Assembly: GCF_006363955.1 (NCBI RefSeq)
Contig: NZ_CP040948.1
Location: forward strand, 372,001 to 436,000
Origin: Methylophilus medardicus
GTDB taxonomy: Bacteria; Pseudomonadota; Gammaproteobacteria; Burkholderiales; Methylophilaceae
Direction of reading: 5' to 3'
Length of the DNA: 64,000 nt
The notes below the pieces were generated by a model that did no database searches, was not told the origin of the DNA, and worked only from the letters and a program-made list of their open reading frames with translations. Numbering within the stretch: position 1 is the stretch's first letter; the number at the start of each line of letters is the position of its first letter. This document shows, piece after piece, positions 24,534 through 45,797 of this stretch. The position numbers and the translations under genes are program-made.

Positions 24534-24621
24534 AACGCACTAGGTTTGAAGTTAGTTTTCGATTTAATCATGTTATGTGGGGCCTGCGTTTGAAATTCAG
24601 GCCCGTCTCAGGGAAAACGAT

Positions 24622-40933: not shown

Positions 40934-42745
40934 TTAAAGCGAACGCTTCAATGGTGGGGTGTCCGCCTGTAAGAGCAGCGCGTTTAAAAGCGCTAAGTTA
41001 TCCGCAGGTAACTGCGCGATATCTTGCTCAAGACGATCACCCGCCATGCGGCGTAATGATCGTAGAAGTTGCAGCGCTTCAGGGTGGCGATGATTCATTT
41101 CTAGCAACACCACTAGGTTGAGGCAGGGGCGACGCAGAGGAATGAACTGAGCCGCTCTTTCAGCAATTGATAGTTGTATGTCAGCTTGCGCAGTATTCGG
41201 CACAAGATAAGTGGCTAATACAAGGTCACCGTAGGGGGATAATAGTGAATGATCGCTTACCCAGAGCATCTCTTCCACCAGCGTTTGCTTTTCGGACGAT
41301 GACATTTCTGTTTGGCTTGCAATATGAATCTGTCGCTCAAGTTTTTGATAGGCTATTTGCATCAGTGTCAGTTGTACGAGGCCATATATGAATGCTGCCG
41401 CAAATGTCAGTTTCAGCGATGCCTTCGCCGCGTTGGAAAGATGGCTTAGTTTGATCTCGCTAAACTCACCCACGCCCAATAAAAATGCACAAATGCCCAG
41501 AAAGTAGCTGTACCACAATGGATACTCAAGCTGACTGTGTATCCCCAAAATAGCCAGAATGCCAAGAAGCCAAATGGTCTCAGGGTCGCGGCTGCGCTGT
41601 TTGAAAAAGGGCAATATCCATAATATTAGGCCTGCAAAAACGATGATTAGGCCGACTAAGCCCACCTCAGTGAGAAGGTGTAAAAAAAGATTGTGTGCAT
41701 GCTCAAAGAACATATGTGCATGATTGATGGTCGGCAAGTCTGCGGTTACAAAAGTTTGCCATCTTATCTGGCCAATGCCCATGCCCAGCAGTGGTGATTG
41801 ATTGAACAGCGCAAGACTAGTTTGCCAGAATTGCCATCGCAATGAAGCGGAGGGATTGATCACAGCTTCCATCGCTCTTGCTACCGGCGTATGGATGAAT
41901 GCCTGCGGGAGAAAAGTGGTGAGTACAATCTGTAAGATGACAAACGTCGGGATCAGGATCAGGCTCAATCTGAATAGTGTTATAGCTGTATCAGGGCTCT
42001 CGGTTTCTGAGCTTGGTTGACGCTGCCTGACCCAGCACAGCATCGCGATTGCGATCAGATAGAGTAAAGAACTGCGCGATCCAGAGAGCGAGAGCAGGCA
42101 CAGCCCTGTTAACAAACCAATGATTAGCCAAGTCCGATTACACGCGTGGCGACTATATAAGTATATGAGTGAACACATTGCTAACGCGGTAATATTCGCA
42201 AAATGGTTACTCTGACCAAGCATGCCATAGCTGGTTAAATGCGGGATGAGTTTAGCAAGATTTAGTGTTTGCAGGATTTCGAATTGCAGTAGTAGTTGTA
42301 ATACCACAAATACACTATTGATCGCAGCCGCTAGTACCAGCGCCCAAGCAAGTGTTGTTACCACTGATTTTAGACCGAGAGACTTCCTCAAATGCCATCC
42401 AAGCAGGGTTAGAAAAAATGCCCATGATACATAGGCTTCTATCAGCGATACATTCGGCGACGCAGGATGCATTTGAAAGAGCATTTGTAGCTGTATCGTG
42501 AGCAACAACCCAAGAAAAATGAAGCTAGCGCGCGGAATCGAAGATTGCCAAAAATGCTTAGTCAGCAAGGGTGAGAGCGCTAACAACCCGCATAACGCTG
42601 CAATCCATTCTCCATAAAAATTAGGAATGGGTACTTGATGATAAGCCGTGATCATGGGCAGGCAGAACATCGCAGCGATCAGTGCAAGACTCATGCGCGG
42701 AACAGATGATGCCATCCCAAGATACATGGCTGCTCGCGCGTGCAC
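40934..42745 (-). CDS. PglL-type O-oligosaccharyltransferase / O-antigen ligase family
   Basis: A 603-residue inner-membrane protein with about 12 hydrophobic segments. It has a large loop carrying H-A-H-M-F-F-E-H-A-H-N-L-F-L-H-L-L-T-E-V-G (near residues 342-362), the Wzy_C ligase signature. A C-terminal periplasmic helical domain (~450-590) of the Wzy_C_2 type marks the PglL/PilO protein glycosylases over WaaL. These move lipid-linked glycans onto Ser/Thr of exported proteins, often type IV pilins. The start is GTG overlapping the uvrD stop by one base; an ATG six codons inside is an alternative. Confidence 0.85.
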   Translation of the reverse strand: MHARAAMYLGMASSVPRMSLALIAAMFCLPMITAYHQVPIPNFYGEWIAALCGLLALSPLLTKHFWQSSIPRASFIFLGLLLTIQLQMLFQMHPASPNVSLIEAYVSWAFFLTLLGWHLRKSLGLKSVVTTLAWALVLAAAINSVFVVLQLLLQFEILQTLNLAKLIPHLTSYGMLGQSNHFANITALAMCSLIYLYSRHACNRTWLIIGLLTGLCLLSLSGSRSSLLYLIAIAMLCWVRQRQPSSETESPDTAITLFRLSLILIPTFVILQIVLTTFLPQAFIHTPVARAMEAVINPSASLRWQFWQTSLALFNQSPLLGMGIGQIRWQTFVTADLPTINHAHMFFEHAHNLFLHLLTEVGLVGLIIVFAGLILWILPFFKQRSRDPETIWLLGILAILGIHSQLEYPLWYSYFLGICAFLLGVGEFSEIKLSHLSNAAKASLKLTFAAAFIYGLVQLTLMQIAYQKLERQIHIASQTEMSSSEKQTLVEEMLWVSDHSLLSPYGDLVLATYLVPNTAQADIQLSIAERAAQFIPLRRPCLNLVVLLEMNHRHPEALQLLRSLRRMAGDRLEQDIAQLPADNLALLNALLLQADTPPLKRSL

Positions 42746-44925
42746 TATATTTTTTCCAGCTTGGCGTATTCCAGCATCAGCGTTTTGAGGCCCGCGCTTC
42801 CGAAATTCACTTTGATTGCCAAATCATTGGCATTGCCTTCATAACTGACCACCACACCCTCGCCAAATTTGCCGTGGCGTACACTCTGGCCAATTTTGAA
42901 TGGAAAGTTGGATTGCGTGCTGCTGGATTGCGTTGGTGGGTTGTTGTATTGGCCGCCTGCTGCATAAGGCTTAGACACTGGCTTGCTGTTTAAGCGTTTG
43001 GTGAGCTCTGCGGGGATTTCATCGATAAAGCGCGAGGCGATGCCGTAGCGGACCTGGCCATGCAGCATGCGGCTTTGTGCATAGGTTAGATACAGGCGCT
43101 GGCGCGCGCGGGTGACTGCCACGTACATCAGGCGGCGTTCTTCTTCCAATCCGCCATTTTCGTAAGCGGCCTGCTCGTGTGGAAATAAACCTTCTTCCAC
43201 GCCACCGATAAATACACTGTGAAACTCCAGGCCTTTGGCGGCGTGTACCGTCATTAATTGCAAGGCTTCATGCCCGACATCTGCCTGATGGTCGCCTGCT
43301 TCTAGGCTGGCGTGATTCAAAAATTGGGTTAACAAGTCGGCATCTTCATCCATATTATGATGATTGCCCAGATCCTGATTGCTAAAGGCTACAGCGGCGG
43401 TGACGAGTTCTTGCAAGTTTTCGATGCGATCTTCGCCTTCTTTATCATTTTGGTAATGCGCCATCAGTCCACTCAGGTTGATGACCAATTCGGCCATCTC
43501 ACCAAGCGTAATGCCATAGGCATGATCCACCAGCTGCCGAATAAGCGCTACAAAGCCATCGAGCCCTTTGCTCCCCAGCTTGCCTTCTCCCACTTTGTTG
43601 GTGGCGGCTTGCCATAAGCTGCATTCGTTTTGGCGCGCAGCTTCTTGCAACTGCTCCAAACCGCGCGCGCCAATGCCGCGTGGCGGAAAATTCACAATAC
43701 GCAATAAGGCCGTATCGTCGTTGGCGTTAGCAATTAAGCGTAAATAGGCCAGCGCATGTTTGATTTCGGCGCGTTCAAAAAAACGTAACCCGCCATAGAC
43801 CCGATAGGGCAGGTTGGCTGAAAACAACGTGTGTTCGAGAATACGAGATTGCGCATTACTCCGATAGAGCAGGGCCATATCGCCGAGTGGTACCCCTTCT
43901 TTTTGCAGCATGTTGACTTCATCGACAATAAATTGCGCTTCATCGGTGTCGTTGTATGCCTCATAAATACGAATCGGCTCGCCTTTCCCTGCAGAGGTCC
44001 ACAAGTTTTTGCCAAGGCGATTGCGGTTATTGGTGATGATGGCGTTGGCAGCGTCCAGGATGTTGCTGTGCGAGCGGTAATTCTCTTCAAGCTTGACGAT
44101 ATTCTGCACATTAAATTCGCGCTGAAAATCGCTCATATTGCCCACGCGCGCGCCACGAAAAGCATAAATGCTCTGGTCATCATCGCCGACCGCAAAAATA
44201 CTGTTATGTGCTCCGCCCAGCAACTTTAGCCACAAATATTGCAGGCGATTGGTATCTTGAAACTCATCCACCAGAATGTATTGAAAGCGCTGCTGATAGT
44301 GCGCACGAATGTGCGGCTCGCGCTCTAACAGCTCATAGCAGCGCAGTAACAGCTCGGCAAAATCAGCGACGCCTTCACGGTTGCATTGTTGGTCATAGGC
44401 GGCATAAATCTCACGTAACTTTTGGCTATGCCCGTCATAAGCATCCACCGCCTCCGCGCGTAAACCTTCTTCTTTACAACTGTTGATATAGCCCATCACC
44501 TGTTTGGGCGGATATTTCTCATCGTCCACGTTCATGGCCTTCATGACGCGCTTGATGGCCGAGAGTTGGTCTGCGGTATCCAGAATCTGAAACGTGTTCG
44601 GTAAACCCGCCTCGCGATAATGCGCGCGCAACATGCGGTTGCATAAGCCATGAAAAGTCCCCGCCCACATGCCACGCGTATTAATTGGCAGCATACTGGT
44701 CAAACGCGTTAGCATTTCTTTGGCAGCCTTGTTGGTGAACGTTACTGCCATGAGCCCCATGGGTGATGTTTGTCCGGTTTGAATTAACCAGGCAATCCGG
44801 GTAGTCAGCACGCGGGTTTTACCACTGCCGGCACCTGCCAGAATCAGCGCAGAGACATGCGGCAGGGTGACCGCTTGCAGTTGTTTGTCGTTGAGGCCCT
44901 GAAGGAGTTGAGTATCAGCTTGCAT
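42745..44925 (-). CDS. uvrD: DNA helicase II (UvrD/PcrA)
   Basis: A 726-residue SF1A 3'-5' helicase for nucleotide-excision and mismatch repair and removal of RecA or RNA polymerase. Motifs in order: Q motif (L-N-D-K-Q-L-Q-A-V), Walker A L-A-G-A-G-S-G-K-T-R-V-L, Walker B V-D-E-F-Q-D-T-N, motif III (G-D-D-D-Q-S-I-Y-A-F-R-G-A), L-E-E-N-Y-R-S (IV), T-V-H-A-A-K-G-L-E-F (V) and V-A-V-T-R-A-R (VI). A C-terminal SH3-like segment ends the protein. Length equals E. coli UvrD (720). Confidence 0.97.
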   Translation of the reverse strand: MQADTQLLQGLNDKQLQAVTLPHVSALILAGAGSGKTRVLTTRIAWLIQTGQTSPMGLMAVTFTNKAAKEMLTRLTSMLPINTRGMWAGTFHGLCNRMLRAHYREAGLPNTFQILDTADQLSAIKRVMKAMNVDDEKYPPKQVMGYINSCKEEGLRAEAVDAYDGHSQKLREIYAAYDQQCNREGVADFAELLLRCYELLEREPHIRAHYQQRFQYILVDEFQDTNRLQYLWLKLLGGAHNSIFAVGDDDQSIYAFRGARVGNMSDFQREFNVQNIVKLEENYRSHSNILDAANAIITNNRNRLGKNLWTSAGKGEPIRIYEAYNDTDEAQFIVDEVNMLQKEGVPLGDMALLYRSNAQSRILEHTLFSANLPYRVYGGLRFFERAEIKHALAYLRLIANANDDTALLRIVNFPPRGIGARGLEQLQEAARQNECSLWQAATNKVGEGKLGSKGLDGFVALIRQLVDHAYGITLGEMAELVINLSGLMAHYQNDKEGEDRIENLQELVTAAVAFSNQDLGNHHNMDEDADLLTQFLNHASLEAGDHQADVGHEALQLMTVHAAKGLEFHSVFIGGVEEGLFPHEQAAYENGGLEEERRLMYVAVTRARQRLYLTYAQSRMLHGQVRYGIASRFIDEIPAELTKRLNSKPVSKPYAAGGQYNNPPTQSSSTQSNFPFKIGQSVRHGKFGEGVVVSYEGNANDLAIKVNFGSAGLKTLMLEYAKLEKI

Positions 44926-45127
44926 GCCCGATATTATCGCATGATGTGTGGGGGAGTTTGCCGGATTGTTTGTCGTGACGCGTCAGGGGGCTACAGAATG
45001 TTGTTTTTTAAGTGCGTTGTTCTGCGCATGACTTTTTTGACACAAACGCAATCAGTCATGACTGATCATATGAAAACACTAAAGTCTTGCATGGCGGCGT
45101 ATTACAGCCATCCTCTGACGATGTACT

Positions 45128-45318
45128 TGAGGGCAGAAAAAAGGACCGTGAGCCCTCATTGTTAGCTATCTGAACAACTTGTCGGAACTTTTCAAACCAA
45201 CGCTGACTCTTACTTGTACGATGATGATGAGTCATCTTTCCGCTTCTTTCCTCCCTGAGCGGAAGCCTTTACGATGAGGCCTATTGCCCCGATTTTCCCC
45301 TTAATCGGGGCTTTTTTT
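45128..45318 (+). ncRNA. Candidate small RNA with an anti-Shine-Dalgarno hairpin loop
   Basis: This stretch has no credible ORF yet ends in a perfect rho-independent terminator on the plus strand with no gene before it. Visible hairpins: TGAGGGC/GCCCTCA (45128-45158), TGACTC/GAGTCA (45204-45234), and TTTCCGCT/AGCGGAAG (45237-45265). The 13-base loop of the third contains CCTCCC, complementary to Shine-Dalgarno sequences. The layout recalls, from memory, a family catalogued as Betaproteobacteria toxic small RNA. The 5' end is unknown and no clear promoter was found, so the start given is only the first hairpin. The rest of the gene-free stretch (44926-45127) holds a 16-bp palindrome at 45051-45066 and nothing else that I can support. 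Confidence 0.55.
45286..45318 (+). terminator. Intrinsic terminator of the candidate small RNA
   Basis: A GCCCCGATT/AATCGGGGC nine-base stem with an eight-base C-rich loop, followed by seven Ts. Strongly oriented to the plus strand; the trmL stop on the opposite strand is 15 bases away. Confidence 0.9.
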
Positions 45319-45332
45319 GTCTATTGTTTTTG

Positions 45333-45797
45333 CTACACCCCGCCAGTGAACCCTACTTGCCGCCAAGCCTCATACAACACAATGGCCGCAGAGTTAGAAA
45401 GATTCAGACTTCGGCTATGAGGCAGCATGGGCAGCCTGACGCGATGTTCAGGCGCAAATTGCGCCCGAATGTCTTCTGGCAAGCCGCGCGACTCGGGGCC
45501 AAACACAAATACATCCTCATCTTGAAACTGCAAATCTGTGTGACGTGTGCTGCCTTTGGTGGTGAGTGCGAACAAGCGTTTGCCTGCCAGCGCTTGGGTG
45601 CATTCAGCCCAATCCTCATAGACCGAGAGTGCAGCGTATTCGTGATAGTCCAAGCCTGCGCGTTTGAGGTGTTTATCTGATAACTCAAAGCCTAATGGCT
45701 TCACTAAATGTAGTTTTGCGCCCGCATTGGCGCACAGACGAATAATGTTGCCTGTATTGGGCGGAATTTCCGGTTCGAAAAGCACGATATGAAGCAT
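45333..45797 (-). CDS. trmL: tRNA (cytidine(34)-2'-O)-methyltransferase
   Basis: A 154-residue minimal SPOUT methyltransferase that methylates the wobble ribose of tRNA-Leu isoacceptors. It starts MLHIVLFEPEIPPNTGNIIR, and has G-P-E-S-R-G-L-P (motif 2) and the knot helix L-N-L-S-N-S-A-A-I-V-L-Y-E (motif 3). Length equals E. coli TrmL (157). Divergent from mshE with an 87-base gap. Confidence 0.95.
   Translation of the reverse strand: MLHIVLFEPEIPPNTGNIIRLCANAGAKLHLVKPLGFELSDKHLKRAGLDYHEYAALSVYEDWAECTQALAGKRLFALTTKGSTRHTDLQFQDEDVFVFGPESRGLPEDIRAQFAPEHRVRLPMLPHSRSLNLSNSAAIVLYEAWRQVGFTGGV

Follow-up and report, generated by a model that had tools for sequence, protein, structure and literature searches.

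A predicted structured RNA lies between uvrD and trmL

The window, the whole 64,000-nucleotide stretch of the Methylophilus medardicus genome analyzed here, carries uvrD (positions 42745 to 44925) and trmL (45333 to 45797) on the minus strand, identified by Pfam matches that include the SpoU methylase family for trmL. In the gap between them we predict a small RNA of about 100 nucleotides (nt) on the plus strand (45219 to 45318), its 5′ end placed from the −10 element described below; uvrD is its divergent and trmL its convergent neighbor. The TrmL protein encoded here shares 92% identity with that of Methylophilus. The minimum free energy (MFE) structure of 45219 to 45318 consists of four hairpins at −39 kcal/mol, compared with −21.9 kcal/mol (standard deviation, 3.3) for 200 dinucleotide shuffles, none of which was as stable (z = −5.2). 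Hairpin 1 (45220 to 45236), at the 5′ end, is predicted from the fold and lies outside the Rfam model. Hairpin 2 (45238 to 45264) displays the likely pairing seed CCUCCCUGAG, with CCTCCC at 45250 to 45255. Hairpin 3 (45265 to 45280; GCCUU...GAGGC) is predicted by both fold and covariation, with 81.7% of cells paired across 45 relatives. The terminator hairpin with its U7 tract (45286 to 45318) is supported by a terminator scan, fold, and covariation; its stem spans 45286 to 45311 and is followed by T7, and it carries a second C-rich loop, UUCCCCUU, at 45295 to 45302. Six terminator-like sites were listed between 44600 and 46000 (1.7 expected), and this one was the strongest.

A sequence-only reading of this DNA had described a plus-strand terminator preceded by three hairpins between uvrD and trmL, which the terminator scan and the fold confirm, and a CCTCCC exposed in a 13-base loop, which holds for the centroid structure (13 nt; 11 nt in the MFE structure). 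Its description of the stretch as free of open reading frames is fair, the RNA being overlapped only by short mechanical ones: 59 amino acids (aa) on the minus strand (45056 to 45235), 32 aa with a TTG start (45179 to 45277), and 48 aa with an ATG start (45274 to 45420). The extent it assigned, 45128 to 45318, stands for the part from about 45219 onward, while 45128 to about 45217 is promoter and flank. Upstream of the promoter, a GAGGGC...GCCCTC hairpin (45128 to 45158) is overlapped by a minus-strand terminator-like site; this hairpin was rejected as part of the RNA, as by eye it was not seen in the Methylophilus relatives compared. Taken together, these predictions from sequence indicate that 45219 to 45318 very probably encodes a genuine regulatory RNA.

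The RNA belongs to Rfam family RF02837

To classify the RNA, we searched the Rfam families over the whole window with cmscan. Positions 45237 to 45318 (plus strand) matched the full RF02837 (anti-hemB) model, positions 1 to 81 of 81, at 53.6 bits (gathering cutoff, 49.5; E = 1.1e-09). This was the sole copy found in the 2.60-Mb source genome. RF02278, the Betaproteobacteria toxic small RNA family that the sequence-only reading had named, scored 20.6 bits over 45235 to 45318 against a gathering cutoff of 50, and membership was rejected on that score; RF02278 was not found in the source genome, and the control genomes were also without a match in that search. The covariance-model check that had been proposed thus returned a match above the cutoff, to a family other than the one expected. 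The flanking genes are uvrD and trmL; adjacency to hemB, which gives RF02837 its name and is not Rfam's defining score, was not found here.

RF02837 exceeded the cutoff in 111 of 187 Methylophilaceae genomes; of 300 sampled Burkholderiales genomes, 190 did so. At E = 0.001 the counts rose to 127/187 and 232/300 (113 of 135 genera), and 3 of 14 control genomes matched too, none above the cutoff, so some of these weak matches are due to chance. Among the family misses listed, 19 of 20 were 0.8- to 1.4-Mb genomes of a single genus (g2); nearly all of the misses listed (genera g2 and g15) were small genomes, as if the RNA had been lost on genome streamlining. The open-licence PubMed Central literature that we found gives no function for RF02837 and does not link it to sigma-E or to ErsA. 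In the parts of that literature seen, the family member ncS04 of Burkholderia cenocepacia is an expressed RNA of 105 nt for which Hfq binding is cited, and it was unchanged in all seven conditions tabulated (PMC5688073).

The fold covaries and the C-rich loop is nearly invariant

The proposal of a structured small RNA with covarying stems was supported by comparison of relatives. In an alignment of 45 relatives (A2), 92.6% of cells in the four-helix structure were paired, and 18 of 27 pairs had changed on both sides, compared with 9.0 in shuffles; none of 500 shuffles reached this count, a figure that is not a probability, and the structure under test was written from A2 itself. When the structure was slid by 1 to 3 columns, at most 52.9% of cells paired and at most 9 pairs were double-changed. 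Hairpin 1 was no exception, with all 6 pairs double-changed and 95.1% of cells paired across the 45 relatives. A2 was hand-picked from a larger alignment (A1) and aligned by MAFFT without structure, with badly aligned rows omitted, chiefly those with long 5′ hairpins; because the window's own row was among them, the pair counts describe the relatives. For A1, 92 sequences were selected and two (L170 and L226, of family f31) were omitted, leaving 90. MAFFT misplaced stems in A1, RNAalifold recovered 14 pairs from it, and the model built from it (R1) was set aside. Model R2, which includes the 5′ hairpin and was trained on 45 sequences that do not include the window's own, matched positions 417220 to 417318 of the source genome, corresponding to 45220 to 45318 of the window. 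Model R3, from a structure-fitted alignment, was used for searching only.

Across the 90 aligned relatives, the C-rich loop proved nearly invariant: each base of CCUCCCUGAG was at least 90% conserved, whereas hairpin 1 was variable in sequence, as expected if CCUCCCUGAG is a pairing seed.

A conserved RpoE-type promoter directly precedes the RNA

Upstream of the RNA, direct reading identified the −35 element GGAACTT (45184 to 45190), of the sigma-E (RpoE, extracytoplasmic function [ECF]) type, followed after 17 nt by a −10 element, TCTTA (45208 to 45212), identified by pattern match. Motifs of the form GGAACTT...TCnnA correspond to the Escherichia coli sigma-E consensus. We examined upstream windows of 90 bases, 135 of them distinct; the Methylophilaceae supplied 67, and 40 other families of the order supplied 68. 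GAAC[TC]N15-19TCNNA was present in 113 of these windows (61 and 52, respectively). Dinucleotide shuffles matched 1.3 times on average and at most 3 times, and 17 of 7,811 windows elsewhere in the same loci matched. The spacer between GAAC[TC] and TC was 17 or 18 in all but one of the 113 matches, and TCTTA was the commonest −10 element (40/113). Two weaker family members (L122 and L143) lie outside these counts and the neighbor counts below, one locus (L117) had no upstream sequence, and some family loci represent the same genome obtained from two sources (e.g., L032/L114 and L034/L119). A sigma-E-dependent small RNA was judged here by whether a conserved promoter of the RpoE type (GGAACTT/TCnnA) stands immediately ahead of it, and the window RNA has such a promoter.

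The 22 upstream regions without a match include three whose −10 element is a variant but correctly spaced (TCAAT in L129, TCTTT in L130, and TCTAT in L137). Two of the four loci of family f31 (L152 and L153) mismatched the motif and show sigma-70-like boxes, TATGAT or TATCAT; the match counted for a further f31 locus (L170) overlaps a box of the same type. This family is probably that of Burkholderia, judged partly from its hemB neighbor.

Within the source genome, the strict pattern GGAACTTN15-19TCTNA occurs at two sites, before this RNA and before an rpoH-like gene identified by reading its product rather than by profile. Across the genome, this pattern shows no enrichment (2 matches versus 3 for a reversed control), and the promoter argument therefore rests on conservation. 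GGAACTT...TCAGA precedes the rpoE gene of the same genome, which by reading is followed by rseA-like and rseB-like genes; the motif sites before rpoE and the rpoH-like gene lie at position 1274 of L184 and position 1501 of L183 (reverse complement). Both rpoE and rpoH are sigma-E targets in E. coli. Profile searches showed that the source genome encodes RpoE (305 bits) and Hfq (95 bits); the RpoE profile also gave five additional ECF-like matches with lower scores. From its sequence, the promoter looks like one of the type induced by envelope stress.

The RNA and its promoter are conserved while the neighboring genes change

To determine how far the RNA is tied to its neighbors, we compared loci across the order. 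Among 72 Methylophilaceae loci, uvrD lies divergently upstream of the RNA in 70 and trmL is its neighbor in 8, the latter in the nearest relatives only. One of the remaining two is the locus cut at the motif (L117); the other (L151, genome G048) has hemB and engB beside the RNA. L151 is a second RF02837 copy in a Methylophilaceae assembly, and contamination is likely, as its sequence resembles that of family f25 (L221). In 70 loci from other families of the order, drawn from the better-scoring matches above the cutoff, hemB lies divergently upstream in 54 and engB is adjacent in 63 (downstream in 53). We also compared loci from other orders, taking the 18 with the highest scores; polA adjoins the RNA in 9 and engB in 12 (both in 5, neither in 2), such that 16 of the 18 adjoin polA and/or engB. 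Because both samples were drawn from the higher-scoring loci, they favor typical members. Throughout, the promoter motif accompanies the RNA and not the neighbor: uvrD in the Methylophilaceae, hemB/engB in the other families, and polA/engB in other orders. The promoter stays with the RNA when the neighbors change, so an antisense role against hemB is excluded here. In some genomes (loci L254, L255, L257, L197, and L223, as well as genome G647 with 4 matches), the RNA is present two to four times in a span of a few hundred bases.

We also searched 185 genomes of the class (Gammaproteobacteria), in which model R2 had matches at E = 0.001 in 66, including the source genome and one other of the same order. 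The strict promoter motif was present in 9 of the 18 other-order loci, compared with 4 of 484 windows elsewhere, and several further loci show by eye a GAAC[TC]...TC variant. At one other-order locus (L248, 957 to 1397), an Rfam cspA thermoregulator match precedes the RNA by about 100 bases. Model R3, run on 25 named genomes, matched all 8 betaproteobacterial genomes and none of the 17 others convincingly, so the RNA is patchy outside the betaproteobacteria; a match in Neptunomonas (L268, 28.5 bits), lacking both the promoter and CCUCCC, was taken as chance.

Loop pairing does not favor a general Shine-Dalgarno mask

The sequence-only reading had suggested a small RNA that masks Shine-Dalgarno (SD) sequences. 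Over the 49 genes of the window, the loop pairs best near −10 (mean, −5.6 kcal/mol, versus about −3 to −4 kcal/mol at most other offsets). However, composition-shuffled loops pair with the ribosome-binding regions of these genes at least as well, and a general mask is therefore not favored over specific targets.

We then searched the source genome for candidate partners. The 9-base loop complement CAGGGAGGA occurs at 6 sites, which include the RNA gene itself; no site coincides with a convincing start. The 10-mer GGGAGGAAAG occurs at 2 sites, again including the RNA gene; the other, presumably part of an RNase P RNA by resemblance, is likewise not at a convincing start. One site from these searches (L235) abuts an ATG but falls inside a longer frame. 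GGGAGG was not found before the start of the one porin gene examined (L259).

Within the window, CTCAGGGA (24607 to 24614, plus strand) lies just before the start (24622) of a gene assigned by reading to the AcrB-like (RND) transporters and complements the conserved loop end UCCCUGAG over 8 bases. Of the 2 such sites in the window (0.87 expected), the second is in the RNA gene. Among 11 relatives, the stretch before the AcrB-like gene contains CAGGGA in 3 and CAGGA in the remaining 8, and no match was found in a twelfth stretch (L276). On this sequence complementarity, the AcrB-like gene may be a target, which we put forward as a lead only.

Discussion

We propose that 45219 to 45318 encodes an RF02837 RNA that is made by RpoE and acts in trans, with the help of Hfq, on the ribosome-binding regions of particular mRNAs, mostly lowering their translation; we put the probability of this reading at about three in four. 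Envelope damage would lead RpoE-bearing polymerase to transcribe the RNA from the promoter at 45184 to 45212. Hfq would assist its pairing with mRNAs, as it does for other sigma-E RNAs, and the C-rich loops, CCUCCCUGAG in hairpin 2 and UCCCCUU in the terminator, would pair with the ribosome-binding regions of particular messages and in most cases reduce their translation.

Several other readings were weighed against this one. The loop might act as a general decoy that mimics the 16S tail and damps the translation of many genes. It contains CCUCC, the anti-SD core, and its mean pairing with the window genes is strongest near −10; yet loops of the same composition do as well when shuffled, and the conserved part extends into UGAG, outside the anti-SD, which suggests specific partners. 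We regard such a decoy as unlikely. The possibility that the RNA is real but is served by another ECF sigma factor reading the GAAC...TC motif, or by a different promoter, and hence is not under RpoE control, draws on the five further ECF-like matches and on the RF02837 members in which the motif was not matched. The same motif stands before the source genome's own rpoE and rpoH-like gene, and we consider this account improbable.

We give still less credence to a cis-acting or neighbor-dependent element, whether hemB antisense or part of uvrD control. The family name and the divergent arrangement with uvrD or hemB in most loci of the respective lineages would fit it, but the neighbors vary by lineage whereas the RNA and its promoter are retained, the RNA carries a promoter and a terminator of its own and here overlaps neither the uvrD nor the trmL coding region, and a source seen in part already lists Anti-hemB as trans-acting (PMC3521395). 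Equally slight is the chance that the RNA is an RF02278 toxic RNA which, like ncS27 or the related S17, turns off genes for uptake and catabolism when cells starve. RF02278 shares CU-rich loops complementary to ribosome-binding sites and a terminator with the window RNA; in the portions of the sources seen, its members seem to use these loops over ribosome-binding sites, ncS27 attenuates growth when overexpressed (PMC5688073), and S17 is Hfq dependent (PMC11722255). Against this stand the score far under the cutoff, the four hairpins here compared with two in RF02278, and the sigma-A promoter of S17 (PMC11722255), where a sigma-E type promoter is found here.

New here are (i) the RpoE-type promoter, (ii) the 5′ hairpin outside the Rfam model, and (iii) the lineage-dependent neighbors of RF02837. 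The name "anti-hemB" misleads, for a family that exceeds its cutoff in most of the Burkholderiales genomes sampled, and the conserved promoter supplies it with a testable stimulus. The window RNA resembles RF02837 and its member Burkholderia RNA 7 (ncS04) in its full-length match and in having the CCUCCCUGAG loop hairpin, second hairpin, and terminator; it differs from ncS04 in being divergent from uvrD rather than hemB and in its RpoE-type promoter, and from the Rfam model in the extra 5′ hairpin, which covaries in relatives.

A second related system is ErsA (RF01719, Pseudomon-1), which we adopt as a working model for the action of this RNA. According to the parts of the literature seen, ErsA is made by the sigma-E homologue AlgU/sigma-22 and with Hfq represses translation of algC (PMC8395346, PMC8575079); it also represses oprD (PMC8395346), and in Pseudomonas aeruginosa ersA lies in the polA-engB gap (PMC8575079). 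Most of the other-order relatives of the window RNA adjoin one or both of these genes. Because ErsA also activates targets, namely, amrZ and anr (PMC5819304, PMC8575079), repression is not certain as the outcome for RF02837. Three other-order relatives match Pseudomon-1 over its full length, at scores (29.5 to 30.3 bits; E = 0.05 to 0.07) below the cutoff of 50. For the window RNA itself, Pseudomon-1 gave no match at E values of up to 10, and the RNA sits beside uvrD rather than in the polA-engB gap.

Spot 42 (spf, RF00021) occupies the same position in E. coli, where the gene order is polA-spf-yihA(engB), and has a 5′ hairpin, a middle hairpin, and a terminator in the same order. It is also the best R3 match in a 7-kb E. 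coli region, but at 13.4 bits (E = 0.025), and the window RNA scores 22 bits to RF00021 against a cutoff of 80. Unlike the window RNA, Spot 42 has no CCUCCC hairpin, and it is under different control, that of CRP. The Xanthomonadaceae RNA sX13 (RF02232) is matched over its full length by one other-order relative (L244, 37.9 bits; E = 0.001), which is below the cutoff of 50; the window RNA scores 17 bits. A further other-order locus scores 31.3 bits to ar14, also below the cutoff, and all of these other-order scores (Pseudomon-1, sX13, and ar14) have E values of 0.001 to 0.07.

The polA/engB position common to Spot 42 and ErsA suggests how RF02837 may function, and position together with weak structural similarity suggests common descent with these RNAs. 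We consider the odds about even that RF02837, ErsA, Spot 42, and probably sX13 derive from one sigma-E RNA beside engB, with later rewiring, losses, and a move. If so, that ancestor would predate the split of beta- and gammaproteobacteria, would have been under sigma-E control, and would have directed C-rich loops at ribosome-binding sites. Enterobacteria would have rewired it into Spot 42, some copies (probably those of Burkholderia) would have lost the sigma-E promoter, and the Methylophilaceae would have moved the RNA gene to uvrD. The locus common to ErsA and Spot 42 thus offers a model both for how RF02837 may act and for how a stress RNA may be rewired.
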